In this document: positions 32,001 to 51,915 of the stretch, piece after piece
Position numbering within the stretch: the stretch's first letter is position 1
How the letters are laid out: each line of letters begins with the position of its first letter
DNA from: Tubulanus polymorphus
Lineage: Eukaryota > Nemertea > Palaeonemertea > Tubulaniformes > Tubulanidae
NCBI RefSeq assembly: GCF_964204645.1
Contig: NC_134033.1
Location: forward strand, 9,706,231-9,770,230
Length of the DNA: 64,000 nucleotides
Direction of reading: 5' to 3'
Translations under genes and position numbers: made by a program
The notes under the pieces: generated by a model
Told to the model about the DNA's origin: nothing
The model's database searches: none
Seen by the model: only the letters and a program-made list of their open reading frames with translations

Positions 32001-35000
32001 TTTCAACTAGTGCTGCGTTTGACATTGTAAAATAAAATTAAAATATGATTATTGGAAATGAATTGCATGAACTACATAAATTAGGTCCAAAACAGGGCAA
32101 ATTTCATGGGAAAATAGCACAGTTACAATTATAGTACTGTCGACACAGAGCTATAGGATATAATTCAGTTATTTCTTTGTTCTGTTTGAATATTGTCAAA
32201 TTTCAATATGATATTAAACCAAAAAACCTTTGAAAATGATTGTGATAAAAACACGACAGAGGACTAAATAACTCTTAAGTTGCCAAAAAAAACAAGAAAT
32301 TGATTTTCACATAAGAAGAATCATTGTCAAATAGGTCACAGTGAATAAAGATTCTATTATTTTCCTGTTGTGCTATTTCCACATTCCAGGAAGTGATGCT
32401 GAAACCGTACAACATGAAACAGCACATCATAGAAAATAACCAACATGAATTTGATAGAATAATCACATTTGGAAATAGACAAACATGGAAATTGACCAAC
32501 ATGGAAAATAATAGATTACTATCAATTTCCATGATGGTCAATTTCTGAATGTGACTATTCTAACAAATTCCAGTACTGGATTTTTCTATCTTATTCCAAG
32601 GTTTTCATTGATGCTAATTTCCATGTTGTACATTTTCCAGACGTGAAAATTCTATTTAAGTCCAACACTGGATTTTTAGGACAATTTCATGTCGGACAAT
32701 TTCCGTGTTGTGTATTTTCATGTTGTACTTTGTCTACGATTGGTTTCTTCCATGTTGTACTAATTCCAGCTGATGGATATAGCTTCTCACAAAATTTGAA
32801 AGCAAGTGGTCATGAGACACCTCATAACGCAGAAAAACTTAAAATTTACAGTCTTACTTAACTTCACACTACCTTTTCTGTCATATTATCGGCGAAAGTA
32901 CCAGTATATTCTGAGCCATCTAAAAGCATAGCACCAAACGATCCAACAGACCCAGCTACCAGTGGTTTCATTCCTATAACAAAGACAATTCTTTACTAAA
33001 TTCAACAGCATTTTCAAATAATTTGCCTGATTTTCCTTCAGCTGTCCAGTTCACATCTAACCCAGATATGATTTCGTTCAGCAACTTACTGTCAGCAGAA
33101 TGGTCTAAACTTTTCCAATATTCTTCAACGGCATCTCGAGCGATTGACACACCAGTTTGTATCACACGTATTGCCTCCAATTCAGTCACACCCATAACCT
33201 TCTTTAAAAATTCAACGTTTATCTGGTATGTATTTGTTTCTATAATGTCTGCACCAGCATGTAAAAAGCTATAAAAAAGCAAACCTCATTAGCGAACTAT
33301 ATTTGATAAATTTCGATTACCCTAATGCTGCAAAATCAGAACTGTGTACTTAATATGAGCTTGTTTCACAATATCTGGTTTGGAAATCAACAAACGTGCA
33401 CCCCACAATTCATCATCCTAAAGGTAGAAATAAATTGAATATTTTGAATTCATTGCCACTAGAAAAAAGTAATGTTGTAGGACATAGTTGAACAAGAGGC
33501 CCATGGGCTTTGAATCATTGGTAGATTACACTGTGGTAAGGTAATAAGTGGTAAATGTTTTACATCTGTCGGCAAATGTTCTACGACAATGTTGATTCGG
33601 AGTACCACAGACTTAAGGTCTTAATGTACGATTTTCATCTATGCTGAATATGAATTTCATTTTTCAGCCAAACAATTTAGCCACGTTATTTCTATTGTAA
33701 AATCAATTCGATTCTGTTAAAGATGAAACTAGTTTATTCTGATGTTTTCCATCATGTCCCAGCCAAGATATTTATATCAATCAAGATTTGGATACAAAAA
33801 CCATTTTAACAGAACATTTTCGGCACCTTCGCCTACAAGATTCGTATCAACGACGTAGGCCTACAACTGCAAGGGCAATCTCTACTGACTGCAGCTTTTC
33901 TTGCATCAAGTGTTAGGCCCTATCCCTGAATAATGAAAACAAAAACATAACAATTTTTCTGAATGCAAAATCGGCCTCATGCATAATAGGTAGAACAACC
34001 GGACAAACGTACGCATCAAAATGTTGCACAGAGAGCTGGTGTCACTGAGGCTGGCTGATTGTTTGTCTTTTTGTTTGGCTTTATGTTGTTTGAATCTTGG
34101 TTTCCCTATTGGATTGTTCATTTTACCTCACGATGGGTGTCGCGAGTGAGAGTGACTTGATGGTGCTGCCATCTGTTATAATTCTAACTCAATCTATGGG
34201 AAGTAACTAGATGGTGCTGCCATCTGGTGTTATTCTAAAAATGTATTGAAATTCTAAAATCTTATATCTTAGGTTGCTGAATAAAAACATTGTGATTGAC
34301 ATCAACAATTTAGTTATGTCTTTTTGGTATGAAATCTAGACAACAGGACGGCCTTTGAAATGTTGCTTGCACTCTCTGTAAGCAGCCAGTGCCAGTAGGA
34401 CTCGAACCCACTTGGACTTTTTTTGCACGGATACTGCAACTGCATCATGCCTTATCTCACTGAGCTATCGAGGCCGCTCGATTCAAATCCAAAAAGCTAC
34501 AGCGGCTGAAAATAACCATAGCCATATTGAAATTTACAACAAACAACAGTAATTTTAATCACTGTTGAAGTTAGCGTTCAATGCATGGAAAAGATAAAAG
34601 ATAATAAAAGTTATTTTTCCCAGCGTGCATTACAAAGTGAATCTATCTGTAGAGTGCGTAAGGGGCTGCTACCGCGTCATCTTTCTACCCTCCTTACGCA
34701 TCATCTTTCTACCCTCCTTACCCATCATCTCTCTACCCTCCTCACGCATGACCTCTCTACCCTCCTTACGCATCATCTCTACCCTCCTTATGCATGACCT
34801 CTCTACCCTCCTTATGCATGACCTCTCCACCCTCCTAACGCATCATCTCTTTACCCTCCTTACGCATGACCTCTCTACCCTCCTTACGCATGACCTCTCT
34901 ACCCTCCTTACGCATCATCTCTCTACCCTCCTTACGCATGACCTCTCTACCCTCCTTACGCATCATCTCTCTACCCTCCTCACCCATGACCTCTCTAACC

Positions 35001-38000
35001 TCCTTATGCATGACCTCTCTACCCTCCTAACGCATCACTCTCTACCCTCCTAACGCATGACCTCTCTACCCTCCTTACGCATGACCTCTCTATCCTCCTT
35101 ATGCATCATCTCTCTACCCTCCTTACGCATCACCTCTCTATCCTCCTAACGCATCACTCTCTACCCTCCTTACGCATGACCTCTCTACCCTCCTTACGCA
35201 TGACCTCTCTATCCTCCTAACGCATCACTCTCTACCCTCCTTAACGCATGACCTCTCTACCCTCCTTACGCATGACCTCTCTATCCTCCTTACCCATCAT
35301 CTCTCTACCCTCCATACGCATCATCTCTCTACCCTCTTAACGCATCACTCTCTACCCTCCTAACGCATGACCTCTCTACCCTCCTTACGCATGACCTCTC
35401 TATCCTCCTTACGCATCATCTCTCTACCCTCCTAACGCATCACTCTCTACCCTACAAACGCATGACCTCTCTACCCTCCTTACGCATGACCTCTCTATCC
35501 TCCTTACGCATCATCTCTCTACCCTCCTTATGCATCATCTCTCTACCCTCCTTACCCATCATCTCTCTACCCTCCTTACGCATCACCTTTCTACCCTCCT
35601 TACGCATGACCTCTCTACCGTCCTTAAGCATGACCTCTCTACCCTCCTTACGCATCATCTCTCTACCCTCGTTACGCATGACCTCTCTATCCTCCCTACG
35701 CATGACCTCTCTACCCTCCATATGCATCATCTCTAATCCGCCCCGCATGATCTCTGCCCCTCTTATGCATGAATGATCTCTACCCCCTTAAGCATGATAT
35801 CTCTACCCCTCTTACACATCGTCTCTACCGGCTTACACATGGCCTCTTCACCCCCTTGCACATTGAAATTGGAGTACATTTGAAGTTTCATTGATTTTCA
35901 GGGCGTTTTACCCGCACAAAATGTCGTTGAAGCCAGGCCAGATATCGAAGAACCTGCTCTTATCAACCAGGTGGAGCCTGCAGCAGAATTACAGCCCGCT
36001 ATGGCAATGGAGCCTGCTCGTGTGTTTGCGCCTGCCCAGAAATTTCCTGCTCATAATTTACCAGTAACCATTTTTAGCTTAATTCAGCTTGATAATTAAA
36101 AAACTTGTTTAGGGTATTTTTTAATTTTTGTCTCTATTACGGTACACATTTTCTTTTAGGATGCTAACAGATTGCTGAACGCCACTACCGCAAGCACCGT
36201 TCGTCGGCTTGCTGGAAAGGTCAAATCAGCTGGCTGTATGGCGTGCCAGCTGATGGATGCCCTCTTCCAGCAAGAAGAAATGCAAGGCAAGACTTTAACA
36301 GGGAGCAGAGTTGCCACTTATGTGAAGCTAAAAATCCGGAAAATAAGTCGGGGTCTGAGGGCCCTCCCCCAAAAAAATTTTTGAAATTAGAACGCCAGGA
36401 GATGCGTTCTGGCGCAATACGCGTTATAGGCCTCACTTTCATTACCGCCTATAGATCTTTTTTTCAAATAGCGATTGGTTCCGTCAAATACACCGCATAT
36501 ATAAACCAGAGAGCCAAAAAACAAACGAAGCGTCAGTCAATTTCGATCGTCGCGTCATCTTGGTTTAATCATAGAACTATGTTCTATGGTTTAATCGTGT
36601 ACTGCAGGGTTGTTGCCACTACGTGGCAGCACAATACGGCTTTTTCGAACCCACTACGGAGCCGTCACGTTTTGATGTTTAGGGTCGAATCCCGAATTGA
36701 TTTTATTTTTTTCGCGAAGTTTTCTTTTGTGGTTATATGACTTCTCCCGAAAATCCGGAAATGAAATTGGATTTTTTTAAAATCCGGAATTCCGGAGAAA
36801 TCCGGAGAAGTGGCAACACTGAGGGAGGGATGGTATTACAATGGAGGTCGACCCAGCGAGACAGATAGATTTCAAGCGAATCAATCTTATGATGAGTAAG
36901 TAATTCCTGGATGTTTTTAAACAGTAATTGTGCCTGGAAAGTGATGCTAAAATCTAGTTTTATCTCTTTTTAGGGTACGTTAAAAAAGAGATTCCGGAAG
37001 CTAGTATTTCCGACATAAAAGTTGCAATGCGTCAGAAATTGAAGAAGCTTCGGGCTTGAGATTATAGCATGGATTAGCTATGTGTTAACTATCTATATCT
37101 TACATATTAAAATCATAAAGATAACTTTTAAGTGTGTCTTGGTCTTCTGAGGTAAATTGGAGTTGGATATTTTTTTCAAGGTGAGCCAGGATTGGAATTC
37201 AGTATATTTTCAGACAGGAATTAGATGCGGCTGGACCTCTAATAGCTGAAATTGCTAATAACAGAATATAGACAGACAGTGTATCTAGGATGAAGTACAC
37301 GTTTAAGACACGTGTATTTAGGATGAAGGACCAGTGTATTTAGGATGAAGTACACGTGTAAGACACGTGTATCTGGGATGGACACATGTATTTTGATAAA
37401 GTAGCCTACACGTGTATTTAGAATGAAGTACACGGGTAAAATTGGGCAAATTTTACACGTGTACTTAAAATACATGTGTATTTTCATTTATTATTACGCG
37501 TGTACAATTTTTGCTAGGGTATTAACGAAATTACGGACCAAAACGTCGCAAGGAGAGCAGGTGTGACAGACAGTAGTGTGACAGATAGGCCTAGTAGACT
37601 ATAGCCTAAAAGGAGGACCGGTAAAAGTGCAGATCTGCACCTCTCCGCGTAAACGGTTCAATCAATTAGGCCTACATTAAATATCATTGTTTCAGATTCA
37701 AAATGTCATCAGCAATCGGTCATCCTTATTACCGAGATGATGTATTTTACCGAGATGAACCGAGATCAACCATGATGAAATTAAATATAACATATTTATT
37801 TATTCCATATCGATTTTAACCATTGAAATCATATTATATCAGTAATAAATGCCTGCTGGGTTCATATTTTACATATTTTGTCGGATATTTTTGGAAAAAT
37901 AACTTTTAACTTTACCGAGATGAGATCGTCGATCAATCAAATTCAATGAAATTTTATTGCTAACCGAGTTTACGTTTTCGAAGTGGCTACTCGTACGGAC

Positions 38001-38788
38001 CCGTACGAATAATTCCGTAGGCTATTCGTACACACCCGTCGGATAACTTTGGAATTATGTGTACGGGAAGGGATAGGGTTAGGGTAAGGTGAGGCTATAT
38101 GTAGTTAAAACATTCGACCGACTGTCAGCGAGCTCGGTGGTCTAGTGGTACGATGCTGTGCTAGTAATTTACTGGCCCGGGTTCGAGTCTCGCTCTATCC
38201 GCTATTTTTCTCTAACCCTATTCTCCACACTTTCCTTGAATTTTCTAAGTCGTGCACCTCTGTATGCATGCGCAGCGTTAATCGGCCAATCAGCGACAGT
38301 TATTAGCGTACAGATCCTAGTCCCATACGAATAGTCTCCAGAGTAATCAAAATTTTTTTTAATAAAAAAATATGTAAAATATGACTCTAGGAGGTATTTA
38401 TTACTGATATAACATGATTTCAAGTGTTAAAATCGATAAGGAATAAATAAATATGTTATATTTAATTTCATCTCGGTTGATCTCGGTAAAATACATCATC
38501 TCGGTAATAAGGATGACCCTCAGCAATTCATACATTGCCATTGGTTAATCTTAATATATCTTCACTAGAAAGATTTAGCCTGGATACTGTCATTCAGTAG
38601 ATTGCGTCAATCACGAGAGGTGTGGATCTGCACTTTTACCGGAGGACCCATCGATCGTCGATAGGGCCTACTAAGATTTCAGAATCAAATTCACAACTTA
38701 CGTAAAGTGTGTCATATCCTAGTCTTGCTAGTTCTGTACCCATTCCACCATCTAGTATTATGTAGTTCTGTTCTAGGAGTGACTGCAT
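19924..38788 (-). CDS. Homocysteine S-methyltransferase gene, 8 exons, 336 aa
   Basis: Transfers a methyl group from S-methylmethionine or S-adenosylmethionine to homocysteine, giving methionine in the cytosol (MmuM/HMT family, known biochemistry). All eight exons join in frame with GT-AG introns: 87, 68, 179, 101, 162, 60, 203 and 151 nt, total 337 codons including stop. The TIM-barrel signatures are visible: ILDGGMGTELARLGYD at residues 11-26, GADIIETNTYQ, LVAGSVGSFGA, and the zinc ligands Cys250 (GVNC) and Cys314-Cys315 (GGCCR). The length is normal for the family. The start is the first ATG before the glycine-rich strand. The gene looks intact although introns 1, 4, 6 and 7 are full of transposons. 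Substrate preference cannot be read from sequence. Confidence 0.95.
20075..21120. other. Intron 7, part without recognised element
   Basis: Non-coding intron sequence of the methyltransferase gene. Only short open frames without motifs occur. Confidence 0.6.
21125..23260 (+). mobile_element. Penelope-like retroelement (RT plus GIY-YIG), decayed
   Basis: Lies in methyltransferase intron 7, antisense to the gene. Segments in order: ISKADKGGKIV near 21237, YGLPNIHKQDVPLRPIVSN near 21475, MGNPLSPILANLFLEHVET near 21860, the catalytic region RYDDDVLAL near 21964 (YVDD expected), DGKIPFLDV near 22078, and a GIY-YIG endonuclease with VCYQIYIGETGRDLNKHLRE near 22640. This order is that of Penelope-like elements with the C-terminal nuclease. 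Several frameshifts break it. The 3' flank near 23055-23115 resembles 49060-49130, suggesting the 3' end of the same family in both places. Confidence 0.92.
22493..22628 (+). repeat. 68-bp tandem duplication in the Penelope-like element
   Basis: Two nearly identical copies beginning TAGTCATAACTTAACTCAC, directly before the GIY-YIG segment. It looks like a local duplication in this copy. Confidence 0.9.
23311..23513 (-). CDS. Homocysteine S-methyltransferase exon 7, first zinc Cys
   Basis: Encodes ILAVGVNCTHPDAV with zinc ligand Cys250, then LLVYANSGEPWDDKL. The donor GTAAGT follows two bases of a Lys codon. Confidence 0.95.
23680..25101. mobile_element. 1.4-kb TIR element in intron 6
   Basis: The ends are inverted: TGGGATGTTCCAATAAGTAC on the left and, as reverse complement of the right, TGGGATGGTCCACAAAGT, both followed by GTACGCATGG. 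Inside, a direct repeat around TTGAAAGTAAACATCTTCGA occurs at about 24503 and 24703. An open frame at 24722-25198 spans repeats and shows no domain. No clear target duplication was found. Confidence 0.6.
25857..25916 (-). CDS. Homocysteine S-methyltransferase exon 6 (residues 200-219)
   Basis: 60 nt in phase 0 on both sides. The segment corresponds to the variable loop after the SFSC strand. Acceptor TTTTTCAG, donor GTTTGT. Confidence 0.85.
25993..26154 (-). CDS. Homocysteine S-methyltransferase exon 5 (residues 146-199)
   Basis: 162 nt encoding ELMDWHRPRMKVLVESGVDV, then LALETIP and AWLSFSC, all typical of the family. Acceptor TACAG, donor GTAATA. Confidence 0.93.
26411..27411 (-). mobile_element. 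piggyBac element, internally deleted
   Basis: Flanked by TTAA at 26411-26414 and 27408-27411, the target site of piggyBac. The ends match as TIRs: CCCTTTCAACACCACATAG on the left, CCCTTGCAATACCACTACC as reverse complement on the right. On the minus strand at about 27115-27265 an acidic N-terminal segment typical of piggyBac transposases begins MATARKKQFG and, after a frameshift, continues LVFDSDAGDLEFGSEQIESD. The catalytic part is absent. Two diverged copies of a region containing TTGGATATA and GACCTTGAGG lie at about 26455-26620 and 26830-26975. Confidence 0.8.
27632..29030. mobile_element. TIR element, 1.4 kb, containing a hAT-like insertion
   Basis: Ends share a 35-bp inverted repeat with one or two differences: CCATCATCGACTGATGTTAA then CAAGCCC at about 27645-27671, and its complement at about 28997-29023. 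No transposase is visible. It encloses the element at 28010-28856. Confidence 0.6.
28010..28856. mobile_element. hAT-like MITE with internal GGGGCACT repeats
   Basis: Ends CTAGGGGCGGATCCAG and, as reverse complement, CAGGGGCGGATCCAG, a terminus type I associate with hAT elements. About ten GGGCACT words occur inside, as subterminal repeats do. I could not confirm an 8-bp duplication. Confidence 0.6.
29031..30490. other. Intron sequence without recognised gene
   Basis: No domain-bearing frame. About 30 bp around AGAAAGAAACTTTCCATGAT (near 29490) recur in inverted orientation near 59300, behind the gypsy-2 polypurine tract, hinting at an LTR fragment. Confidence 0.4.
30498..31904 (+). pseudogene. 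Mutator-like transposase fused to a RING finger, decayed
   Basis: Antisense in methyltransferase intron 4. After an acceptor (TTTTTCAG at 30497) the N-terminal region is followed by a MULE transposase core: first Asp in HMDATLNTIPAQFYQLF (near 30842), second Asp in MADFEEAPATAIRIVYPDV with GCWFHFAQAIF (near 30959), Glu in NNGVESFHAQLKSRF (near 31292). A poly-Asp linker (31580-31660) leads to a C3HC4 RING finger (CIICL, CGHTAFCREC, CSVC; 31749-31870) and a stop at 31904. The three catalytic residues lie in three different frames, so at least three shifts have occurred. The RING would be a ubiquitin E3 ligase module. The transposase-RING fusion is in one frame. Confidence 0.88.
32385..32775. 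mobile_element. Fold-back MITE-like repeat in intron 4
   Basis: Words such as AACATGGAAATTGACCAACA and their complements (TTTCCATGATGGTCAATTTC) are arranged around a centre near 32515, and ACAACATGAAA-type words recur in inverted form to about 32770. It is probably a small non-autonomous element or several. Ends are not defined. Confidence 0.5.
32873..32973 (-). CDS. Homocysteine S-methyltransferase exon 4
   Basis: Encodes MKPLVAGSVGSFGAMLLDGS then EYTGTFADNMTEK. Acceptor TTATAG, donor GTAGTG, ends in phase 0. Confidence 0.92.
33090..33268 (-). CDS. Homocysteine S-methyltransferase exon 3
   Basis: Encodes FLHAGADIIETNTYQ and the following helix through EEYWKSLDHSAD. The donor is the perfect GTAAGT at 33089-33084. 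Reading past it gives an apparent stop near 32982, but using this donor joins exon 4 in frame. Confidence 0.92.
33350..33417 (-). CDS. Homocysteine S-methyltransferase exon 2
   Basis: 68 nt encoding DDELWGARLLISKPDIVKQA and onward, matching the family's D-x-LWSA region. Acceptor CTTTAG, donor GTACAC. It ends with two bases of a codon completed by exon 3. Confidence 0.9.
33418..34386. other. Intron 1 sequence without recognised gene
   Basis: Non-coding. Near 34160-34230 the phrase GATGGTGCTGCCATCTG occurs twice. I see nothing else. Confidence 0.5.
34387..34486 (-). mobile_element. tRNA-derived SINE fragment
   Basis: On the minus strand, A box TAGCTCAGTGAG and B box GGTTCGAGTCC are correctly ordered, but the middle is expanded with an A-run and the stems do not close. 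It is therefore read as a tRNA-derived repeat and not a tRNA gene. Confidence 0.6.
34677..35850. repeat. 24-bp minisatellite
   Basis: More than 40 copies of a 24-bp unit containing CTACCCTCCTTACGCATGAC, varying at TGAC/TCATC and losing a base here and there, decaying after about 35740. Because 24 is a multiple of 3, long open frames appear on both strands (repeating Ser-Thr-Leu-Leu-Thr-His). These are not taken as genes. Confidence 0.97.
35902..36063 (+). CDS. BEN-domain gene, exon n-2 (Glu/Pro/Ala-rich)
   Basis: A 54-codon open exon in phase 0 on both sides. The acceptor TTGATTTTCAG ends at 35901 and the donor GTAACC starts at 36064. It encodes a low-complexity linker (VEPAAELQPAMAMEPARVFA). 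It is antisense to the methyltransferase gene, in its intron 1. Upstream exons were not found; the minisatellite lies directly before it. Confidence 0.65.
36160..36895 (+). pseudogene. BEN-domain gene, exon n-1, split by a transposon
   Basis: BEN domains are DNA- and protein-binding modules of chromatin factors, DNA viruses and transposons. Acceptor TTCTTTTAG (36159), phase 0 start, and a left coding part through MDALFQQEEMQGKTLTG. The exon is interrupted at 36306-36827 by a 516-bp element plus a 6-bp target duplication. Without the insert the frame is open to VDPARQIDFKRINLMM and the donor GTAAGT-like site at 36896, and joins exon n in frame. With the insert the frame runs into a stop near 36384. 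Family assignment rests on the LF..EEM.GKTLTG and DP..I..I..YVKK patterns. Confidence 0.7.
36306..36821. mobile_element. 516-bp non-autonomous TIR transposon in the BEN exon
   Basis: Ends CAGAGTTGCCACTT and, as reverse complement, CAGTGTTGCCACTT (13 of 14 match). The 6-bp direct repeat AGGGAG flanks it at 36300-36305 and 36822-36827. Near both ends CCGGA words recur (ATCCGGAAA). No transposase. The superfamily is not assigned. Confidence 0.82.
36974..37059 (+). CDS. BEN-domain gene, last exon
   Basis: Acceptor TCTTTTTAG at 36973. It completes an Arg codon and encodes YVKKEIPEASISDIKVAMRQ then KLKKLRA and stop TGA at 37057-37059: the C-terminal helices of a BEN domain. No frame damage in this exon. 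Confidence 0.75.
37270..37450. repeat. Short tandem repeat with GTGTATTTAGGATGAAGTAC
   Basis: Four to five diverged copies of a 30-50-bp unit containing ACACGTGTA palindromes. Non-coding. Confidence 0.8.
37709..38527. mobile_element. Nested element A with about 170-bp TIRs
   Basis: Body 37717-38519, flanked by the 8-bp repeat TCAGCAAT at 37709-37716 and 38520-38527. Long inverted arms begin GGTCATCCTTATTACCGAGA and run about 170 bp at high identity (37718-37890 against 38360-38519). T1 copy 2 sits between the arms. Confidence 0.87.
37979..38348 (+). mobile_element. T1 element copy 2 (tRNA-like promoter)
   Basis: About 90 percent like 1590-1960, including the tRNA-like segment at about 38128-38203 (A box TGGTCTAGTGGTACGATGC, B box GGTTCGAGTCT). 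It is the innermost of three nested insertions. It lacks the last bases found at the right end of copy 1. Confidence 0.85.
38702..38788 (-). CDS. Homocysteine S-methyltransferase exon 1 (residues 1-29)
   Basis: Starts with ATG at 38788 and contains LDGGMGTELARLGYD, the first barrel strand. It ends in phase 0 before a GTAAGT donor. A palindromic MITE lies just upstream. Confidence 0.92.
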
Positions 38789-39067: not shown

Positions 39068-39265
39068 GACCGGGCCCGACTAAACCCAGATGGGATATAA
39101 CTAGAAAAAGGGACGGCTCGATCGATAGCCTAGTGGTGTTGGTCAGGTTGTTCGAATCCCACAATACATCTTTATCCAATAAGGATTAGGATTTCATTAA
39201 ACACTCAATATCATTTCTATGGAAAGTACAAATTCACTATCAACAGAAAATGATAAGCAATAGAT
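39068..39265. other. Short spacer with tRNA-like fragment
   Basis: At about 39115-39165 ATAGCCTAGTGGT and GTTCGAATCCC resemble A and B boxes but are closely spaced; probably a SINE remnant. Confidence 0.35.
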
Positions 39266-40793
39266 GTTTAACATATTTATAGATTTTGGCGGTATTAGCG
39301 AGTTATATCGTATGAAAGATCATACAGATTTCTATAATATATAAAAAATGCAGAAACCTCTAGCTCAGTTCCCGTTTTTTAATAAATTAACTTTGAACAT
39401 CTTAATTGCGGTCGCGTGTCTGTGACACGTCTCTGACAATAGAATTAGATAAGTCGAATCTGGAATATGGGCTTTTTAATCATATTTATAGTTTTTGGCG
39501 GTATTAGCGAGTTATATCGTATGAAAGATCATAAAGATTTCTATAATATATAAAAAATGCAGAAACCTCTCAGTTCCCGTTTTTTAATAAATTGACTTTG
39601 AACATCTTAATTGCGGTCGCGTGTCTGTGACACGTCTCTGACAATAGAATAAGATTAGTCGAATCTGGAATATGGGCTTTTTAAACATATTTATAGTTTT
39701 TGGCGGTATTAGCGAGTTATATCGTATGAAAGATCATAAAGATTTCTATAATATATAAAAAATGCAGAAAACTCTCAGTTCCCGTTTTTTAATAAATTAA
39801 CTTTGAACATCTTAATTGCGGTCGCTTGTCTCTGACACGTCTCTGACAATAGAATTAGATAAGTCGAATCTGGAATATGGGCTCTTTAATCATATTTATA
39901 GTTTTTGGCGGTATTAGCGAGTTATATCGTATGAAAGATCATACAGATTTCTATAATATATAAAAAATGCAGAAACCTCTCAGTTCCCGTTTTTTAATAA
40001 ATTGACTTTTAACATCTTAATTGCGGTCGCGTGTCTGTGACACGTCTCTGACAATAGAATAAGATAAGTCGAATCTGGAAGATGGGCTTTTTAAACATAT
40101 TTATAGTTTTTGGCGGTATTAGCGAGTTATATCGTATGAAAGATCATAAAGATTTCTATAATATATAAAAAATGCAGAAACCCCTCAGTTCCCGTTTTTT
40201 AATGAATTAACTTTGAACATCTTAATTGCGGTCGCGTGTCTTTGGTAATAGATTCAGCAAAGTCGAATCTGGAAGATGGGCTTTTTAAACGTATTTATAG
40301 TTGTTGGCGGTATTAGAGAGTTATATCGTATGAAAGATCATAAAGATTTCTATAATATATAAAAAATGCAGAAACCTCTCAGTTCCCGTTTTTTAATAAA
40401 TTGACTTTGAACATCTTAATTGCGGTCGCGTGTCTGTGACACGTCTCTGACAATAGAATTAGATAAGTCGAATCTGGAATATGGGCTTTTTAAGCATATT
40501 TATAGTTTTTGGCGGTATTAGAAAGTTATATCGTATGAAAGATCATAAAGATTTCTATAATATATAAAAAATGCAGAAACCTCTCAGTTCCCGTTTTTTA
40601 ATAAATTGACTTTGAACATCTTAATTGCGGTCGCGTGTCTGTGACACGTCTCTGACAATAGAATTAGATAAGTCGAATCTGGAATATGGGCTTTTTAAAC
40701 ATATTTATAGTTTTTGGCGGTATTAGAGAGTTATATCGTATGAAAGATCATAAAGATATCTAAAGATAACATATCAAAAATGCATCATTTGAA
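39266..40793. repeat. 206-bp satellite array, left arm
   Basis: About seven and a half units. Each contains TTTTTGGCGGTATTAGCGAG, TCTATAATATATAAAAAATG, CTCAGTTCCCGTTTTTTAAT, TTAATTGCGGTCGCGTGTCT and GAATCTGGAATATGGGC. The innermost unit resembles the right arm most closely (AACATATCAAAAATGCA). Confidence 0.96.
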
Positions 40794-40876
40794 AGCAAAG
40801 TCGAAAAGTAAGATAATCAATAAAAATGACATCTCTTTTCACAAAATTTAAAGAATCGTTACTTTATACTTTTTAG

Positions 40877-41190
40877 GTTGAACCACCGAGTCGAGCTGCA
40901 GAATTGGTTGAACAAGGACCACCATTAAGGAAAGCCGACAATATTCGTCTGCCTCGTCAAAAAAGGCGACGTTTTACTGACTTCCAAACTCAAATCATGC
41001 CGCGTTTGAACAGTGGGAGTGTGAAGTACTGTTACTGTAAACAACCGGATGATGGAAATATTATGGTTCAATGCGCATACTGCAACGATTAGTTCCATCA
41101 TAAATGTATCGAAAATCCACCGGATACAGATACGATAAACAATGAGAGCTTCATATTTTGTTGCAATTACTGTGTTACTGGTTTAAGCAA
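40877..41190 (+). pseudogene. PHD-finger module, with a stop in place of the core Trp
   Basis: PHD fingers read histone tails. After an acceptor (ACTTTTTAG at 40876) a basic stretch leads to a Cys4-His-Cys3 finger: KYCYCKQPDDGNIMVQCAYC, then FHHKCIENPPD and FCCNYC. The residue before FHH is normally Trp; here the codon is TAG (41090-41092), a one-base change from TGG. The finger is in one frame with the USP Cys box that follows. No upstream exon was located, although the acceptor suggests one. Confidence 0.82.
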
Positions 41191-42340
41191 GCGTGGAATG
41201 GTTAACAGGCGCAATACATGCTGGTTAATTGCATCGATTCAAGCATTTCTGTCAACACCATTGGCAGGTGACCTCCGCACTTTACAAAGCCAAAAAAATC
41301 ATTTCAAGATCAAATGCTGTAGAGGAGCTTGCAAACAACCTGTCGAGAATTTGTCATAAACTGTGCGATGATTCACCCGAACCATACATTCCAGAACAGT
41401 TTATGTACTCGCTTCTTAATAGTATGACCATACCGCAAGTAGCCAATGGACGAATGTTGGATTGCGATGATTTCATTCGTCACGTCTTGATTCCTATTTG
41501 TTCTGCATATGAAATCGATGACAAACTCATAACTAAAACTGAGACTTATTGTCCGGAACTGGGCCACGCGCACAGTTACTTAAACCAGAACCAGAACTTC
41601 AACGAGATCATAATCGGGCGAAAAGCAATCCCGGGAGATGACATCATGGCTAGTCTGATTCGCTATTTTGAGCCTGAAAATCGCGAATGTAAATGCCCAT
41701 GCAACCAATGTGATAGCGGTGAACACGATTGTAGGCCGCATTTACTTACGAAGTACAGCCAAAAGGTGCAAAAACTTCCAAAAACACTTATATTGAACAT
41801 GGCCCGATGCCAGATTGATATCGCAAGTGGAGCTGTTTATAAAAATATGGACCCCATACAACTGTCTCCGGTCATTGATATGAGACGTTTCATCGCCGAA
41901 TCAGCTGAACAGCCCTCATCGTGTAGCTATTGGCTCTCAGCTGTAGTGGTACATCGTGGTGCGAGTGCAAATGATGGTCATTACGTTACGTACCGATTTA
42001 ACAGGGACAGTACCATAACCCTCTTCGATGACCATCTAAAGCAATCGGTCGATTTTGATGAAGCGGGGAGAGAAATTACCGAAAATGGACAGTTATTTCT
42101 GTATACGATTGACCATATTCAGCATGATGTTGCGGTGAATCAACATCCTGTGACCAGAAACGAGACACCTGTCATTACGTCGCCAATTGAAATCCATTAC
42201 AGCACGTGTTCCGACGATTATGTCAGCAATGACACGCCGCCGGCTCCATTGTCTTCCGAGGTGGAGACTAATGACAACGAATGTGATACGGATATCGCGA
42301 CTATTGTGTTACCCACCAGTCCTAAAAAACTAGAGAGCAA
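41191..42340 (+). pseudogene. Ubiquitin-specific protease (USP) domain of a transposon
   Basis: Cysteine protease fold that removes ubiquitin from proteins. The Cys box RNTCWLIASIQAFLST (41210-41257) holds the nucleophile; the His box GASANDGHYVTYRF (about 41961-42002) and the following LFDD supply the rest of the triad. A Cys-rich insertion (CKCPCNQCDSGEHDC, near 41691) could bind zinc, as in many USPs. The Cys box and the remainder are in different frames: either a 1-nt indel near 41275-41300 or a 55-nt intron (41268-41322, GT-AG, phases agree). The domain is about 300 residues, normal for a USP. It is contiguous with the downstream zinc module. Confidence 0.88.
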
Positions 42341-42839
42341 AACAAAAGAACGTCTAGCTGGGATAATACTACCTGACGGAGATTTCCATGCAGATTTACC
42401 GTCATGTGGAGAATTCACCTTAGAAAAGATGGAATGGGACGTGCTAATCGAAAATAGCAAATTGTGCAAAACTAAATACAGCTGGCTGACCTTGCCTTCG
42501 AACTGGGTAAATGTCATCCACAAACATGTACAAAAATTGAACCCATATTGTCCTATCCAGTATTCTAGACACAGGGTGAAATTTCCGGATTCCAGAAAGA
42601 AGAACAGTCCTTATTTTACGGCATATGGTTACTGCAACATGCCCGATTGTACGTGTAAGATTGTTGTCAAAACGGAAAGTCTTGATGAGTTGAAGTGCGT
42701 GGTAGAATTCTCCGGGAATATCAGTCATAAAAAAGGTGATTTTCGGAGACGATATTTCCGAGCTGATGAACGGGAAGAAATGAAAAAAAAAACTAATCAA
42801 AGAGAAAAACCCACGACGACTTCAAGACGAACATCTTAA
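42341..42839 (+). pseudogene. Zinc-binding module between USP and transposase
   Basis: Follows a Ser/Asp-rich linker. A segment with Trp residues (YSWLTLPSNW), YRC-like cysteines (GYCNMPDCTCKIVV, near 42629) and a His (NISHKKGD) resembles the FLYWCH/GCM-WRKY-type fingers that precede many MULE transposases; the exact family is not certain. The frame ends at 42839 after a shift at the A10 run 42783-42792; one base fewer would join it to the transposase. Confidence 0.6.
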
Positions 42840-44455
42840 TAATCTAGATCCAAAGCAGATTGCATCCGGAAATTTAACGGGGATGTCAGCTAACGGCGAT
42901 GTTTACCGAACCATGCAACATGAAGCCAGATTAGAATTGCAAAGGCACGACGATGTGCACATAAGCCTTGTGAAACTTAAAGACGAATTTATTGCTGACC
43001 CTTTCTTTGCCGAAAATGTGAAAACAGGCTATATTCAATCGATATCAGTTTTACCTTCATGCGTCATAATGTTTTCGGAAGCCGGTGTACGTGCATTTCA
43101 TGATGTGGCTGCGAAAAATACAATATTTTACGATGCAACCGGTTCAGTAGTTCGGAAAGAACCAGGAAAGCCAGATCATTTTTATCACTCTATTGTTTTG
43201 GCAAATCCGGTTCCAGGTAGAAATACTCCCCTGGCAGTAGCAGAAATGATAACTGACAATCAGACACAAGTAATGATGGAACAATGGTTGTCACAGTTTC
43301 GTTATGCAGAGAAATCGTTATATGGATATAAAAATACTGTAACGCCGAAAATGATTTCCTGATAGAAGTGTAGCTTTCATACAAGCATTTCTGAAAGTAT
43401 TCAATTTCGAAACAATGGAGGATCACCTGAAACGTTGCCATCGTATCCTTGAGGGCAAGGCAACGACAGACGACTTGCAAAAATCATTGATGCACGTCGG
43501 CGCCTGTCATTTGATGAAAGATGCGAAGGTACACTGCAAGAAAATACATAAATCAAATTATCAATATGGAATGTATTTGTTCAGTCTGCTGTTGAACTGT
43601 GCAAATCTCGATCAGTTCGTTAAATTGTATTATAGCATATGCTTTGTCCTATTATCACCACATGAGTCGCAGCAAACGAAGAATAATCACAAAATCATAC
43701 AAGAGTCAGTTGATAATATAGAAACATTAAGTGACCTGAATGTTGAGACATCTACAGATGCTAATCCAACAGAATCTGACGAAGCAATTAAAGAAACTGG
43801 GCGCTTAACCGAGGAAGAATGTTTTCATGCATCTGTCCGATCACCGTTTTCTATGATTGGAAATTCTATTGTTGAGAAGGTTAAACGGGACATAGAAAGC
43901 GACAAAGTGAATTGTGCAACAAGCGAACCAAATCACAGACAGTCAACCGAATTGCTAATGAAAATAAACAAGTACTTCATACCAACGATCCCGATTTGGT
44001 CAAACATGCTAACCGGTAATTTACAACGTCACTTCAAATCAGATGATCTCGCAATAAAATCGCTCCACAATGTTCCGAAAACTCAAGGTATCATGGAACA
44101 ATATTGGAAAGACATGAAAGGTGCAATGACTACGTATGTCCGTTGGCGAATCGATGCTCTGGTTTTGCATGCCAAGGACTTTCACGTCAGCCGCTGCAAG
44201 AAATTTTTCATCCAAAATGCACAAAAATTGAGAAAGCGAAGGTGTCCGGGGAAAAAAGCAATCACTTTAGCGACCGAAAAATGGCAACACACACCTAAGG
44301 TGTTGGGGAGAGCGAGAACTGGCAATGGAAATGCAAAGAAAGGTCACTTTCAAAAAGCTCCTGTAAAATCGCTGAATCTCACACCTGCAAGATGTAAAAA
44401 GAATACGATCGACGAAGCCAAAAGTGTTAAAAGAAAGAGATCAGTTATCCCATAA
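42793..44455 (+). pseudogene. DDE-type transposase with DATGS motif
   Basis: Cuts and joins element DNA. Core motifs: FYDATGSVVRK (near 43128, first Asp), the PLAVAEMITDN region (near 43232), then after a 1-nt shift at 43358-43364 DRSVAFIQAFLKVFNFETME (second Asp, near 43364), and a Cys/His-containing helix region GACHLMKDAKVHCKKIH near 43500 followed by YGMYLFSLLLN. The long C-terminal part (to 44455) is basic at its end. The motif set recurs in transposon-like proteins I recall from many invertebrates; I do not assign a superfamily. Two frames are used, so this copy is broken. Confidence 0.72.
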
Positions 44456-45159
44456 CTGAAAACCACAAAAAGGTCAAAACCATCGAAATAGAATCCGATT
44501 GCGACGAAAATGTTATTGAAAACACTGGTCGAATTGATAAGAAAAACCGACACGCAAGCCATCTTACAGATGAGATCATCGACCGAGTCGCTGAAACTAC
44601 TACTTGGTTACAAGATGACCACATACATGCTTTCGCAGAAGCCATGTTCGTAACAAAGACATCGGACTTTCTTCCAAGTTTTTTCATCACGTCGCTCCTT
44701 TTGAACAGGAAAGAGCAGGTTGCAAGATACTTACAAGGCGAACTAGACCCGAATAGGTTCATGCTCGACCGTAAAAAGATTTTCATACCACACAATAAAG
44801 GTAACAACCACTGGGTCTGCATAATTTTTGACGCTGGCAATAAAAAGATATATTACCTCGACCCACTAGAATCTACTACTTCGGAGTACGGTGTGTATCT
44901 AACCGAAAAAGTGGTTGCACTATTTTGCGAGAAAATGAAGATTAAAAATTTACACGGTGCATGGAGTTACTTATATAATCCAATACATAAACGGAATCAA
45001 CATGACCTGAACAGCTGCGGAATTTATATTTGCGCGTACTTCGAAAGTTATCTTCAGCAAATTGATGGAGATTTCAGCCTCATCACATGGAGGCCGGACG
45101 CTTACCGAAGACGAATGAGGGAAGTGTTGAGGAAAGCAAAGATGAATGCCATGAAATAG
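44456..45159 (+). pseudogene. Ulp1/SENP-type SUMO protease (C48) of a transposon
   Basis: C48 proteases process SUMO and remove it from targets. The catalytic set is complete: His in GNNHWVCIIFD (near 44798), Asp in KIYYLDPLES (near 44846), Gln in KRNQHDLNSCG and Cys in LNSCGIYICAYF (near 45007). The frame is open from about 44456 to the stop at 45157-45159 but shifted against the transposase end at 44453. Ulp1 domains are established passengers of some Mutator-like elements in plants. Here it lies with a USP in the same element. Confidence 0.9.
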
Positions 45160-45199
45160 AGGATATAGAAGACAGAAGATTAGTAAAGATTCGTTACAG

Positions 45200-45845
45200 A
45201 GATTCGCAGCGGGCAAGGGGATATTTAAGGCGATCATTGAGGATATCGCATTTCACGGGTCCTTTTAGGGCTGACTGTGGTGTCGGTGTTAAATAGAGAG
45301 ATTCGCAGGTCTCCTGGGCAGGAGGAGATTTAACGCGATCGTTGTGTGGATATCGCATTTCACGGGTCCTTTTAGGGCTGACTGTGGTGTCGGTGTTAAA
45401 TAGAGAGATTCGCAGGTCTCCTGGGCAGGAGGAGATTTAACGCGATCGTTGTGTGGATATCGCATTTCACGGGTCCTTTTAGGGCTGACTGTGGTGTCGG
45501 TGTTAAATAGAGAGATTCGCAGGTCTCCTGGGCAGGAGGAGATTTAACGCGATCGTTGTGTGGATATCGCATTTCACGGGTCCTTTAAGGGCTGACTGTG
45601 GTGCCGGTATTGAATAGAGAGATTCGCTGGTCTCCTGGGCAGGAGGAGATTTAACGCGATCGTTGTGGATATCGCATTTCACGGGTCCTTTTTGGGCTGA
45701 CTGTGGTGCCGGTATTGAATAGAGAGATTCGCTGGTCTCCTGGGCAGGAGGAGATTTAACGCGATCGTTGTGTGGATATCGCATTTCACGGGTCCTTTTA
45801 GGGCTGACTGTGGTGTCGGTGTTAAAAAAGAGAGAGATTCGCAGT
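45200..45845. repeat. 106-bp tandem repeat after the Ulp1 gene
   Basis: Six copies of a unit containing GAGAGATTCGCAGGTCTCCT, GATTTAACGCGATCGTTGTG and CATTTCACGGGTCCTTTTAG. It begins within 50 bp of the Ulp1 stop. It is unrelated to the 206-bp arrays. Confidence 0.96.
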
Positions 45846-47140
45846 CGAGACTGGTAAGTATAAGTAATAAGTGTTTTTTTCTTTTCATCATTTCAGGATT
45901 TCATATTTCAGTATTACTGGACGATTCGAATTAGCGATGACTACATCTGAAAGAAAATTGCTATGACAATCGTGGAAAATAAAATTGAATACGTCTTTTC
46001 CGTAAAAACACCTAAATCAGCCTTCAGTCGATTTTACAGCAGTTCCTTGATGCATTTTGGATTGATTTTTTGCACAGACAAACGATATGAAATCTAATGA
46101 ATACTATGATTACATTATATTGATTGATTACGGTGTTGTGGTTGTTGGAAAAAATCCCTTTGTAAATGTCCCCTAGCTAATAATCCCAAAATCTTCAAAG
46201 TACCGGCAGGTAAAAATATATCCACTCTACGATTGTGCAAGAGCATTTCAAAGCAAGATATTTCTCCAATATTTTTCATTCGCGATACTGCAACATATTT
46301 GAACTGTACAATTAACCCTTTTCTTCGTGATAAATCTTTAAATAAATTCTTAGAATTGATAGAATTAATTAACTTTTCATTTGGAATATTTCAGAATGAA
46401 TTCATGCTGGTGTAAATTTTAACTGTATGATAACTCTTTTTAACTTGCGATAGGTTTGAGCTGTGCGATAAATTTTGATAATGAACTGTTTATTTGTAGT
46501 ATTTTTCAATTGTACAATAATTAGTATGCTTATGATATTCTTTTACTATACAATAGAGTTGAATATATATAAATTGGATACCTTCATATGCATACATCAC
46601 TTTCATAGATCTACTTGCACCCTAAGTCAAGAGATGGGGGATTTTTACTGAAAAATTTACTGAACAAATTTAATTATAATGAAACATTTTCGTAAGTGAA
46701 TCGTTTGTATGTGTAACTGGGGTAGCTCTTGTGTGCTGTGTCTGAAAAAATAGAGAACATAGCCATTAGAGTTTATATCCTGGGGAACGCCGAATCATCA
46801 GTGGATAAGGATGATATATGATTATTAAAAATGTAGGGACAATAATAATATTCAAAGTATTGATAAATCTATTGCATTTCGGAAACTGACCACCTAGAGA
46901 TACGCGATGTAAGATTAAAGCAAATTACCAATGGTATGTAACCTATCCAAAATGGCACAAAAGGCAAAAGTGTCCTTTGAAATTCAATCGAAATTTGTCT
47001 CATTATCTCGATCAAAAGGCGTAACACAATACGCGTTAATTAATGTAGTTTCTATGTCGGTTTGATTATAGGCCAAATATGATTAGTCAGTAACATATCC
47101 ATATAATGAAATTGAATAGGCGCGCGCCTGTTGTCAATTA
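45846..47140. other. 3' region of the 8.3-kb element, non-coding
   Basis: A small intron-like unit (GTAAGT at about 45852, TTTCAG near 45896) is followed by AATAAA near 45981, so transcripts may end here. The rest is AT-rich without domains. Confidence 0.45.
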
Positions 47141-47553
47141 AGATATTCAAAGATGTTCGATTAATTAAAAAACGGGAACTGAGAGTTTTCTGCATTTTTG
47201 ATATGTTAGAGAAATCTGTATGATCTTTCAAATGATCTAATTCGCTAATACCGCCAAAAACTAGAAACATGTTAAAAAAAAGCCCATATTCCAGATTCTA
47301 CTTTGCTGAATCTATTATCAAGGACGGGTCAGAGACACGCGACCGCAATTAAAATGTTCAAAGTCTATGTATAAAAAAACGGGAACTGAGAGTTTTCTGA
47401 GTTTTTTATATTTTTTGATATCTTCATGAACCTTCAAATGCCGCCAAAAACTAGAAACATGTTAAAAAAGCCCATCTTCCAGATTCGATTTTGCTAAATC
47501 TATTATCAAAGATGGGTCAGAGACACGCGACCGCAATTAAGATGTTCAAAGTA
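47141..47553. repeat. 206-bp satellite, right arm (inverted)
   Basis: About two units of the reverse complement of the left array, for example AAAAAACGGGAACTGAGAG, TACCGCCAAAAACTAG and GAGACACGCGACCGCAATTA. It is more diverged than the left units are from each other. Confidence 0.93.
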
Positions 47554-48739
47554 AAAAAATTACAAATATTTGTTCTTATTTCCATATATATGCTGAATAA
47601 AAAAGGAGCGACGGGGAACAGATAAAAATAAAATTCTTTTGTTTTACCTAGATCCGTAGTCAAGTTAATGATAAAAAACGGCCCTCCGGATCATTCATAA
47701 TTCATAAGTTCTTTTTGTGTTAAGCTATTTTGATAAAATGTCGTTTTACGCAGTCAATCGGGTTGATTCTGATAGCGATCGATAATCAAGATCAACAACA
47801 GGAAACAATCATAGTATTCGCCATTTCAGCAGGGTAATGACACGAGTTTGCATTTTAAGTATTGCCGGCAGTGAGACACGTACGGGAGAACCGGAAATGA
47901 GTAACCTGAATCTGGTAGATCCGAATAAAGTGATAGCTTCATGTAGGTCAATAGATGAGATCTAACTGACGGACGCCTCGTCACAGCTGAGAAGGGTCAT
48001 TCTTAAGAATCCGCAGACCTGCCCTGAGAGGTGACATGGCTTCTCAGGGCAGGAACCTGCCCTGAGAGGCCATTGGCGCAATTAAGCAGTATAAATAGAA
48101 AACTCGGCTATAATTCTGATGAAACGGCGAACTATCTCGCCGATGTTTGCATGCACATTGTCGAGTATCATGAAATTAAATGGAATAAAATGAAATAAAT
48201 TAAATGTATTGATATATCGATACTTAACAAATAAAACGAAAGTAATATTTCAATTAAAATTCATTCATAATAAGACATGTATTTTTAAAAAGTCATGTAG
48301 TTAACCGACGACGGAAAGTTATGGAGATTATATAAATTTCAAAGCATTAATTTAATTATTCAAATATCCTATAGGCCTACATAAACAATTTGTGTCGTCC
48401 ACTGATATTAGTGCGTTTCAATATGCTGTATATTCTTATTCAACTGTGAATTTATTGGGGGTTTCTACTGCTTTCGCAGCAACTCTATTGTAATTCTGCT
48501 GATCATATTTTTCTTCGGGGTAAGGGTTGGTTGATCCAGGGAAGTGTGATGAGATGGAATACGGACGCTATTGTGCAGCTCTTGTCGAATGTGCGTTGTA
48601 ATTGCCCTAAAGCCGATAACGGTTCGTCGGCGAGCGCTTTGTTACGTAACGCGCCGATAAGCGATAACCAGCGAGATCGGGAATCTCCGTAATAATTCAG
48701 TTGTTTCCGAATATCGGTTTTTCATCCCATAATAAACTT

Positions 48740-50065: not shown

Positions 50066-50944
50066 GAAAAGGTTAATTAAATGAGATTGCTGATGCTATT
50101 TAGGCAACTTGGTTTATATGGGGGACAATAATTTGTAGGCCTAATGTAAGCGTTATTAAGTAACATTATTATGTAGTAAATACACATTTTAAAGATCATA
50201 CTTCGTGTATATGTTTGTGTCGTAACATAGCAACATGACGTCAGAAACGAAAGCTGCGCGAGTCTGGGCCGAAATATTTGACATCTTCAAGGCCCAAATA
50301 ACGCTAAACCCGGAATCGGAACGAACTGGCAAAAACATATGTTTAACACATAAAAACAGACTTTAATCACAATATAAATACTTAATGTTCCGATTCCGGG
50401 TTTCGGAGATATAGAAGAATAAAAATACATACCTTTTTGGACAAATTTTACGAGAAATTGTTGAATTTCAACCGATTTTCTAAAGAAAAATATGTGTATA
50501 CACAGCCACTTCCACGTGGTTCAATAAACTGCAGTGCGCATGCGTAGTATCGATCGCAGAACATTTATCGGGCTAAAACTATTGCGGGTTGTTCTGCGAC
50601 CGAATCAAAGTTGATGTTGACTGGTGTTCAGCTGGTAACACACACTCGATAAGCGTAGCTTACTGCTGTTGCGGTAACCTTTGATGTACGGGCTGAATTG
50701 AATAGCCTACATCCGGCAATTAAAAGCGTCCGTATTCCATCTCATCACACTTCCCTGGTTGATCATATGTCATATTATTTTTTCGTTAGGTTAATTACCT
50801 AAGCGCAGGCCAACTTTAATCAGTTTTATACTTTATCTAATGACAATGGCATAATTATAGTTGCCACAAGCAATAAGGCATACACAATCAAATCTAATCT
50901 GATCAGCCCTGCGGGTGCAATTATATACGTAGTCTACTGTCGTC

Positions 50945-51915
50945 AACCTGCCCTGAGAGGCCAGTTTAACTACTGCAGTTTGAGTTCTGCAGATCACCTG
51001 CCCTGAGAGGCCAGTTCAACTGCTGCAGTTTGACTTCAGATATCGACCTGCCCTGAGAGGCCAGTTCAACTGCTGCAGTTTGACTTCAGATATCGACCTG
51101 CCCTGAGAGGCCAGTTCAACTGCTGCAGATTGACTTCCGATGTCAAGCTGCCCTGAGAGGCCACTTTCAGTCTGCAGAAATCAATCTGCCCTGAGAGGCC
51201 ACTTTCATTCTGCAGAAATCAACCTGCCCTGAGAGGCCAGTTTCATTCTGCAGATATCACCTGTCCTGAGAGGCCAGTTTCATTCTGCAGATATCACCTG
51301 TCCTGAGAGGCCAGTTTAAACTGATGCAGTTTGACTTCTGTAGATCACCTGCCCTGAGAGGCCAGTTTCATTGCTGCAGAAATCAACCTGCCCTGAGAGG
51401 CCACTTTCATTCTGCAGAAATCAACCTGCCCTGAGAGGCAAGTTTAACTGCTGCAGTTTGACTTCCGATATCAACCTGCCCTGAGAGGCTAGTTCAACTG
51501 CTGCAGATTGACTTCCGATGTCAACCTGCCCTGAGGCCAGTTTTGATTCTGCAGAAATCAACCTGCCCTGAGAGGCCAGTTTCATTCTGCAGATATCACC
51601 TGCCCTGAGAGGCCAGTTCAACTGCTGCAGATTGATTTCCGATATCAACCTGCCCTGAGAGGCCAGTTTAACTGCTGCAGTTTTAGTTCTGATATCAACC
51701 TGCCCTGAGAGGCCAATTCCATTCTGCAGATATCAACCTGCCCTGAGAGGCCAGTTTCGTTCTGCAGAAATCAACCTGCCCTGAGGCCAGTTTTGATTCT
51801 GCAGAAATCAACCTGCCCTGAGAGGCCAGTTTCACTCTGGAGATATCACCTGCCCTGAGAGGCTAGTTTAACTGCTGCAGTTTGACTTCCGATATCAACC
51901 TGCCCTGAGGGGCCA
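50945..51915. repeat. Minisatellite with CCTGCCCTGAGAGGCC core
   Basis: More than 20 units of 36-52 bp, each CCTGCCCTGAGAGGCCAG followed by a variable part and CTGCAGATATCA or CTGCAGTTTGACTTC. Two unit types alternate irregularly. Confidence 0.97.

Follow-up and report, generated by a model that had tools for sequence, protein, structure and literature searches.

Why some transposons carry ubiquitin- or SUMO-related proteases is an unsettled question, and a locus in the genome of Tubulanus polymorphus bears on it. The window, i.e. the whole stretch of 64,000 nt that was analyzed, covers positions 9,706,231-9,770,230 of the forward strand of NC_134033.1 (assembly GCF_964204645.1). A sequence-only reading had recognized a PHD finger, a ubiquitin protease (USP), a zinc module, a DATGS-type transposase and an Ulp1-type SUMO protease, which follow one another on one strand between inverted satellite arrays. 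This series was confirmed by Pfam matches, catalytic codons and pairs of array copies. Positions 39267-47948 are a decayed, dead copy of a large DNA transposon, with the following features:

39258..39266, strand not applicable: left 9-bp direct repeat CAATAGATG, putative target-site duplication (exact-copy search of the window)
39267..40762, + strand: satellite array of the left side, in which a 205-bp unit recurs about 7.3 times
40877..41092, + strand: beginning of what survives of the coding sequence; holds the first part of the PHD finger and runs to an in-frame TAG (41090-41092)
41093..41172, + strand: remainder of the PHD finger beyond the stop (PF00628 in the C3 copy, see below)
41204..42104, + strand: USP, with the Cys box in one frame and the rest in the next (PF00443)
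42540..42760, + strand: Cys/His module (C..C.C..H) before the transposase, located by eye, limits approximate
42811..44446, + strand: core of the transposase, split between two frames that change near 43355; motifs DATGS, DRS, CHLMK and TQGIMEQ
44605..45159, + strand: Ulp1-type SUMO protease with His-Asp-Gln-Cys, including the stop codon (PF02902)
45211..45844, + strand: 107-bp minisatellite, 51 bp past the stop codon
47135..47566, - strand: right satellite array, the 205-bp unit inverted
47567..47948, strand not applicable: right terminal region ending in ...GATAGCTTCATGTAGGT (at 47948 the match ends in 5 of 13 other loci)
47949..47957, strand not applicable: right 9-bp direct repeat CAATAGATG (exact-copy search of the window)

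The coding region consists of five reading-frame segments, with four frame changes and one in-frame stop, the TAG that interrupts the PHD finger. The sequence ...tttttag precedes its start and resembles a 3' splice site; the C3 copy starts likewise. Both proteases score above the Pfam cut-offs in the window (USP, PF00443, E 4.6e-16; Ulp1, PF02902, E 3.4e-12), and the PHD profile PF00628 was recovered in the C3 copy, which bears out the proposed assignments. Catalytic codons were located by motif for the USP (Cys 41219, His 41979, Asp 42027) and for Ulp1 (His 44809, Asp 44860, Gln 44998, Cys 45016), as were the putative ones of the transposase (D 43132, D 43361, E 44096). For the Cys/His module the Pfam scans gave no match.

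The boundaries of the element were also revised. The right end had been placed at 47553, but it lies at 47948, where five of 13 other loci stop matching. The sequence CAATAGATG occurs twice in the 64-kb window, at the two edges of the element, and not on the other strand. Left and right arrays are 84-92% complementary among the pairs listed (25 of 27). The left edge of the window copy falls inside the array, and this copy is devoid of the left terminal sequence that is present in the C3 copy.

Related copies were located elsewhere in the same genome, on contigs here named C2, C3, C4 and C8. C4 and C2 each harbor an intact element; the two are closely alike, with sizes of 27.3 and 26.1 kb. Each contains a single open frame of 1758 amino acids with all modules, to which an upstream exon may be added; the two frames differ in 12 of 5274 nt and in four amino acids. 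The intact protein matches PF00628 (7.8e-6) and also has the features of PF00443 and PF02902. Both elements have 102-bp inverted ends, with the terminal sequences ACCTACGTGAAG.../...CTTCACGATAGT, and are flanked by exact 9-bp target-site duplications (TSDs), AGATTACTG in C4 and GGCGCAAGC in C2. The inverted end of C4 comprises 102 identical bp, inside the last five bases, and its minisatellite array starts 14 bp past the stop. Five short open reading frames scanned as additional genes of C4 yielded only weak GIY-YIG and GDSL-like pieces. The order of parts is common to the window, C4 and C2. Over longer pieces the window lineage and the C4/C2 lineage share 38-47% identity, and the satellite arrays of the window and C4 do not match each other at E 0.01. 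C3 carries a close copy of the window element, in which the PHD finger and the Cys box of the USP lie in a single frame (PF00628, 8.9e-7; PF00443, 3.8e-5, with 23.8 bits just below the cut-off of 23.9). The PHD-USP junction is intact at five loci and in pieces at three places on C8; three additional matches span the PHD part alone. Further decayed copies in the genome retain portions of the module set.

These copies decide whether the modules belong to one transposon. The claim had been open to refutation by modules that never occur together elsewhere, yet the whole set was found together at C4 and C2, both times in the intact frame. Another origin of the window arrangement would be a cluster of host genes, or modules that lie side by side by chance between satellites unrelated to each other. 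Nothing was found in favour of this reading, which is excluded for practical purposes by the C4 and C2 elements with their exact TSDs and by the copies on several contigs, and the 9-bp repeats lie at edges that were fixed by separate evidence. Judged by analogy of its layout with published descriptions, the element very probably belongs to the Rehavkus type of cut-and-paste DNA transposons, and the window holds a dead copy.

The terminal 100 bp of the C4/C2 type gave 40 scored matches from 73 candidates, 36 of them outside C4 and C2. The outer flanks of 34 of these 36 were examined, and 31 start with nearly the same 30 bases; three differ from this common flank (L049, L050 and L051). The near-identity of the 31 flanks indicates that most terminal matches represent one end copied inside another repeat, and the reading of a large recent burst of C4/C2-type insertions was dropped. 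With 34 of the 36 matches examined, the independent insertion sites shown are C4, C2 and three more. Insertion near start codons was found at four of 11 sites against a background of 0.177, which is not significant (12 flanks were taken, and L042 was left out as it was not located by motif). Among the further unique flanks the count was 0 of 3, or 0 of 34 if the repeated flank is counted each time, against the same background. With few sites and no significant excess over 0.177, PHD-guided insertion at gene starts is not supported.

Comparison of the window with C4 allowed the constraint on the modules to be estimated. Silent differences are saturated (pS 0.82-0.93), and pN is 0.32 for the PHD finger, 0.33 for the USP, 0.35 for the transposase and 0.44 for Ulp1. 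As pN stays well below the saturated pS, the proteases look like selected parts and not like passengers; their catalytic sites are kept in both lineages. It is very unlikely that USP and Ulp1 are captured fragments of host genes carried along passively. Capture of gene fragments is common in plant Mutator-like elements, according to the available text of PMC6431247, and the constraint on Ulp1 does not exceed that on the short linker preceding it (pN 0.45 over 33 aligned codons). However, the proteases share a single frame with the transposase, the same module order recurs in two lineages with only 38-47% identity over longer pieces, and low pN in every module is accompanied by retained catalytic residues.

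The sequence relationships of the domains give some indication of their functions. In a single search by sequence the PHD finger was nearest to Spp1 and PHF23, and Spp1 was again the top match with a profile. Both proteins are readers of H3K4me3. The USP has the Cys and His boxes of peptidase family C19 together with PF00443. The Ulp1 domain has the His-Asp-Gln-Cys residues of family C48 together with PF02902; among solved chains, SENP2, SENP5 and Ulp1 come closest to it in sequence, and specificity for SUMO is predicted. A putative DDE triad of D1033, D1110 and E1361, plus C1158 for a CxxH motif, was assigned by eye in the transposase of the intact protein, where the model of the transposase has a mean pLDDT of 36.9. 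This value and that of the PHD-USP model (33.8) are too low for a reading of the fold. No relatives were found in protein databases at E 0.001 among 4752 candidates and, separately, among the best 7997 candidates.

The explanation that we consider best overall, and hold with moderate confidence, combines the Rehavkus-type identity with an anti-silencing mechanism based on the removal of protein tags. The fusion of the modules may help the element to escape host control. The transposase would bind and cut the element ends, while the PHD finger would tether the complex to chromatin bearing marked histone H3. Ulp1 and USP could take SUMO and ubiquitin off the transposase or element-bound proteins, by which SUMO-dependent silencing would be blocked, and SUMO-then-ubiquitin removal of the complex would be blocked as well. 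We propose only tentatively that the proteases strip the transposase complex, or chromatin close to it, of both tags and so blunt SUMO-dependent silencing. More speculative is the specific model of a chromatin-anchored transposase with an N-side deubiquitinase and a C-side deSUMOylase, which would disarm both steps of the SUMO-then-ubiquitin pathway and shield the complex, as well as the copies of the element, from both SUMO-dependent heterochromatin and SUMO-targeted ubiquitin ligases.

Two other functions of the proteases have to be considered. The single frame holding every module, and the protease sites conserved in both lineages, would equally suit a polyprotein in which USP and Ulp1 mature or stabilize the fused transposase in cis by removing ubiquitin or SUMO, with no role in anti-silencing. 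We regard this as rather doubtful, since Pfam shows no ubiquitin- or SUMO-like domain in the protein that could serve as a processing site; moreover, protection in cis is compatible with anti-silencing. Repair of excision and insertion gaps, put forward for transposons with Ulp1 or OTU proteases by Bao and colleagues in the available text of PMC2836005, is an unlikely function here and leaves the PHD finger without a reason. The two elements with intact frames make the roles of a transposon deubiquitinase and deSUMOylase testable in one protein with separable domains.

Among known systems, Rehavkus is closest. In the available texts it is treated as a relative or as an outgroup or sister of MULEs, with Rehavkus-1_TC and Rehavkus-1_HR as members. 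Kinship with it rests on layout because Rehavkus was compared by published description and not by sequence. The accessible parts of PMC6446971 give a PHD finger, a minisatellite before the 3' end, a 9-bp TSD and one open reading frame, and those of PMC10218199 describe Rehavkus-1_TC as 9.5 kb long with satellite arrays within inverted termini. Correspondingly, a PHD finger is part of the transposase protein (intact frame, C3 copy), a minisatellite adjoins the end of the open reading frame in the window and C4, satellite arrays lie in inverted termini, the TSD has 9 bp (exact at C4 and C2, CAATAGATG in the window) and a single frame of 1758 amino acids occurs at C4 and C2. Inverted ends of 26-400 bp, a further Rehavkus trait, are found in C4 (102 bp) but not in the window copy. 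The C4 and C2 elements differ from the 9.5-kb Rehavkus-1_TC in their size of 26-27 kb, and the consulted portions of PMC6446971 and PMC10218199 mention neither USP nor Ulp1 for Rehavkus; as terms, Ulp1, ubiquitin, peptidase and protease are all absent from the main text of PMC6446971. The designation of the element as Mutator-like therefore holds in the wide sense only, in which the layout fits Rehavkus, whereas the Pfam MULE profile PF10551 did not match the intact protein up to E 10.

Ulp1 in transposons is already known, as stated in the available text of PMC2836005. Mutator elements with Ulp1 (KIU/VANDAL of Arabidopsis and those of melon, rice, grapevine, hydra and lancelet) likewise carry a SUMO-type protease, but USP and PHD are not mentioned for them in the accessible portions of PMC13317346 and PMC2836005. 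KIU, as far as the text at hand describes it, has three coding genes; Ulp1 resides in an accessory one of these and is not fused to the transposase. For VANDAL, Ulp1 is linked to anti-silencing genes, and the plant anti-silencing gene VANC has Ulp1-bearing forms (PMC13317346, in part). Ginger1 resembles the present element in an OTU or Ulp1 protease at the transposase end, in one case with a PHD finger. It differs in its Gypsy-integrase-like transposase and in having OTU or Ulp1 but not both, and USP is not mentioned (both after the available part of PMC2836005); no integrase profile was found here among the six families of the Pfam scan. The same text describes a Trichomonas vaginalis protein with transposase_11 and peptidase C19, in which a USP-class protease is likewise joined to a transposase; it differs in transposase type, and Ulp1 and PHD are not mentioned. 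USP and Ulp1 within one transposase were not encountered in the literature searched. The present element unites both kinds of protease and a histone-reader-type finger with one transposase, and these parts show signs of constraint. Known Rehavkus elements are described in Repbase only, according to the 2019 Mutator survey (PMC6446971, available text), and the protein side of Rehavkus would be filled in by the frames at C4 and C2.

In the window element, the stop-to-stop frames of the + strand contain a PHD finger, a ubiquitin protease (USP), a Cys/His module, a transposase with a DATGS motif and a SUMO protease (Ulp1), in this order. A sequence-only reading had proposed this arrangement on one strand between inverted satellite arrays, and both its protease modules were recovered by Pfam profiles (USP, E 4.6e-16; Ulp1, E 3.4e-12). 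Four frame changes divide the coding run into five segments, and there is one in-frame stop, a TAG at 41090 that interrupts the PHD finger. A 205-bp array flanks the run on the left and inverted copies of it on the right.

Features of the window element and of its intact relatives on contigs C4 and C2 of the same genome
Window 39267-40762: left satellite array, 205-bp unit (inverted-repeat and tandem-repeat searches)
Window 47135-47566: right satellite array, inverted copies of the 205-bp unit (inverted-repeat search)
Window, beginning 51 bp past the stop codon: minisatellite, 107-bp unit
C4 26310846-26338109: intact element (computed span)
C2 24189176-24215324: intact element (computed span)

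The genome covered (268 Mb, 77 contigs) holds two elements, on C4 and C2, and each has a single open frame 1758 aa long. Between the two frames, 12 of the 5274 coding bases and 4 residues are different. Pfam places PHD at residues 323-370 of the C4 frame (7.8e-6), USP at 381-690 with the full profile covered (1.7e-20) and Ulp1 at 1577-1740 (5.1e-13). Both elements begin with ACCTACGTGAAGTGAGCC and end with GGCTCACTTCACGATAGT, and are flanked by 9-bp duplications (AGATTACTG and GGCGCAAGC). In both, 183-bp satellite arrays form the inverted ends, and a 101-bp minisatellite lies directly 3' of the stop. The window element follows the plan of both; its arrays, when compared with those of C4, gave no match. 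Between the left array and the large ORF of the 26-27 kb elements lies a stretch of about 12 kb in which short ORFs occur on the minus strand; most of it is 99.5-99.7% identical in the C2 copy. Two of these ORFs in C4 (locus L025, 4163-8585) bear a weak resemblance to GIY-YIG and GDSL/SGNH pieces. A further ORF, of 107 aa and on the plus strand, precedes the 1758-aa frame (locus L016, 1152-1475); it had no family match below E 0.1 and is perhaps a first exon, perhaps a small gene of its own. In 31 of 34 fetched outer flanks of C4/C2-type ends (L052-L060, L062-L083), one terminal sequence of this family sits inside another repeat, which is itself copied across many contigs.

That the modules also occur together beyond the window is borne out by these single frames. 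In tBLASTn of the intact protein against the genome, the window is collinear over residues 267-1756. As lower bounds, Ulp1 gave at least 6 matches at no fewer than 5 places, the transposase at least 9 at 7 or more places, and a 96-aa PHD-USP junction at least 17. The junction was whole in five of the latter (C2, C4, C7, C3 and the window) and partial in nine across three C8 places; three were limited to the PHD part, at 32-40% identity. By tBLASTn, C7 retains PHD through transposase with no Ulp1 found, C6 (16.58 Mb) pieces of USP, transposase and Ulp1, and C1 a transposase piece alone; on C3, PHD and a portion of USP remain and are followed by an interruption. Thus, among the loci examined, all five modules were seen only in the window, C4 and C2. 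A more distant DATGT-type transposase relative (28% identity) occurs on C8, together with a minisatellite that shares 82-86% identity with the 107-bp unit of the window; the two features are some 2 kb apart (L024, 4768-5064 and 7117-7337).

The extent first proposed for the window element was 39266..47553. On the left, the array starts at 39267 by inverted-repeat search (39270 by tandem-repeat search); on the right, the end had to be moved. When window 47780-47935 was used as query, 13 other genomic places matched. Five matches end exactly at 47948 (L032, L033, L034, L036, L042), four at 47941 (L038, L039, L040, L043) and one each at 47925 (L037), 47904 (L041) and 47952 (L044); among the rows listed, those of L035 end at 47570, and this locus shares the same end motif. 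Since five matches stop exactly at 47948 and the outer flanks of L032 to L036 all differ, the right end is 47948. At L034 and L036 a plausible first exon begins in the right flank (MASKGFS... and MAAPISV...), its ATG no more than 30 bp downstream of the insertion.

Outside both edges of the window element lie nine identical bases, CAATAGATG, with no further copy on either strand of the window. This direct repeat adjoins the satellite array itself (junction 39258-39275), not the terminal sequence kept in the sister copy on C3, where GCTATCGTGAAGCTATCACTTTATTC, approximately the inverse of the window right end, is found some 1.9 kb beyond the outer side of the array (L047, reverse strand, 1-1950). 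Either the insertion possibly used an inner array position as its end, as might be expected of foldback-like termini, or the repeat is a chance match, for which the probability is 4 in a million when a single pair of edges is fixed and a few-fold higher with slack. At L045 and L046, which have the same right end, no second copy of the nine flanking bases was present within the 9 kb fetched. Other repeats of the window include minisatellites at 34673-35734 (24-bp unit) and 50943-51869 (CCTGCCCTGAGAGGCC-type units, with stray units near 48030, just right of the element). A foldback-like inverted repeat at 37718-38518, with arms of 121 and 52 bp that are 91 and 96% complementary and about 490-700 bp apart, is perhaps a small non-autonomous element.

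Window and C4 were compared for amino-acid-changing (pN) and silent (pS) differences per site, a comparison of two lineages only, the window copy being dead today. Saturation has been reached at silent sites (pS 0.82-0.93). The pN was 0.32 for PHD (59 codons), 0.33 for USP (295), 0.41 for the zinc/linker region (235), 0.35 for the transposase (493), 0.45 for the linker before Ulp1 (33) and 0.44 for Ulp1 (193), the last not different from that short linker. The USP Cys, His and Asp and the Ulp1 His, Asp, Gln and Cys are identical in both lineages. Based on these values against saturated silent sites and on the retained catalytic residues, the constraint on PHD and USP seems to resemble that on the transposase, and Ulp1 seems somewhat less constrained.

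By sequence the PHD finger is nearest to Spp1 and PHF23, and to Spp1 again with a profile; both are H3K4me3 readers. A preference for insertion at gene starts was not significant in a small test of insertion flanks. Open-chromatin marks accompany maize Mu insertions (PMC2774946). SUMO-targeted ubiquitin ligases link SUMO to ubiquitin within a single pathway (PMC8161396), and a transposase carrying both proteases could act on both steps, a mechanism that we propose tentatively. Self-processing or self-stabilization of the transposase protein by the proteases is rated somewhat less probable, and a role of the proteases in repair slightly less probable again. Among plant VANC anti-silencing genes there is an Ulp1-bearing branch (PMC13317346).

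By the Pfam MULE profile, which gave no match up to E 10 in the intact protein, the element does not qualify as a canonical MULE. Rehavkus elements are described as single-ORF elements with a PHD, 9-bp duplications and a minisatellite ahead of the 3' end (PMC6446971), and the 9.5-kb Rehavkus-1_TC with satellite arrays within inverted termini (PMC10218199). These traits recur here, and by layout the element fits Rehavkus. Rehavkus proteins may already include USP or Ulp1 domains that went unremarked. No description of USP and Ulp1 in one transposase was found, by title, abstract or text passage, in the literature searched, mostly open-access papers. The nearest published case, that of Bao and colleagues 2010 (PMC2836005), comprises Ginger1 with Ulp1 or OTU, not both, several Mutators with Ulp1, and a Trichomonas transposase with peptidase C19.
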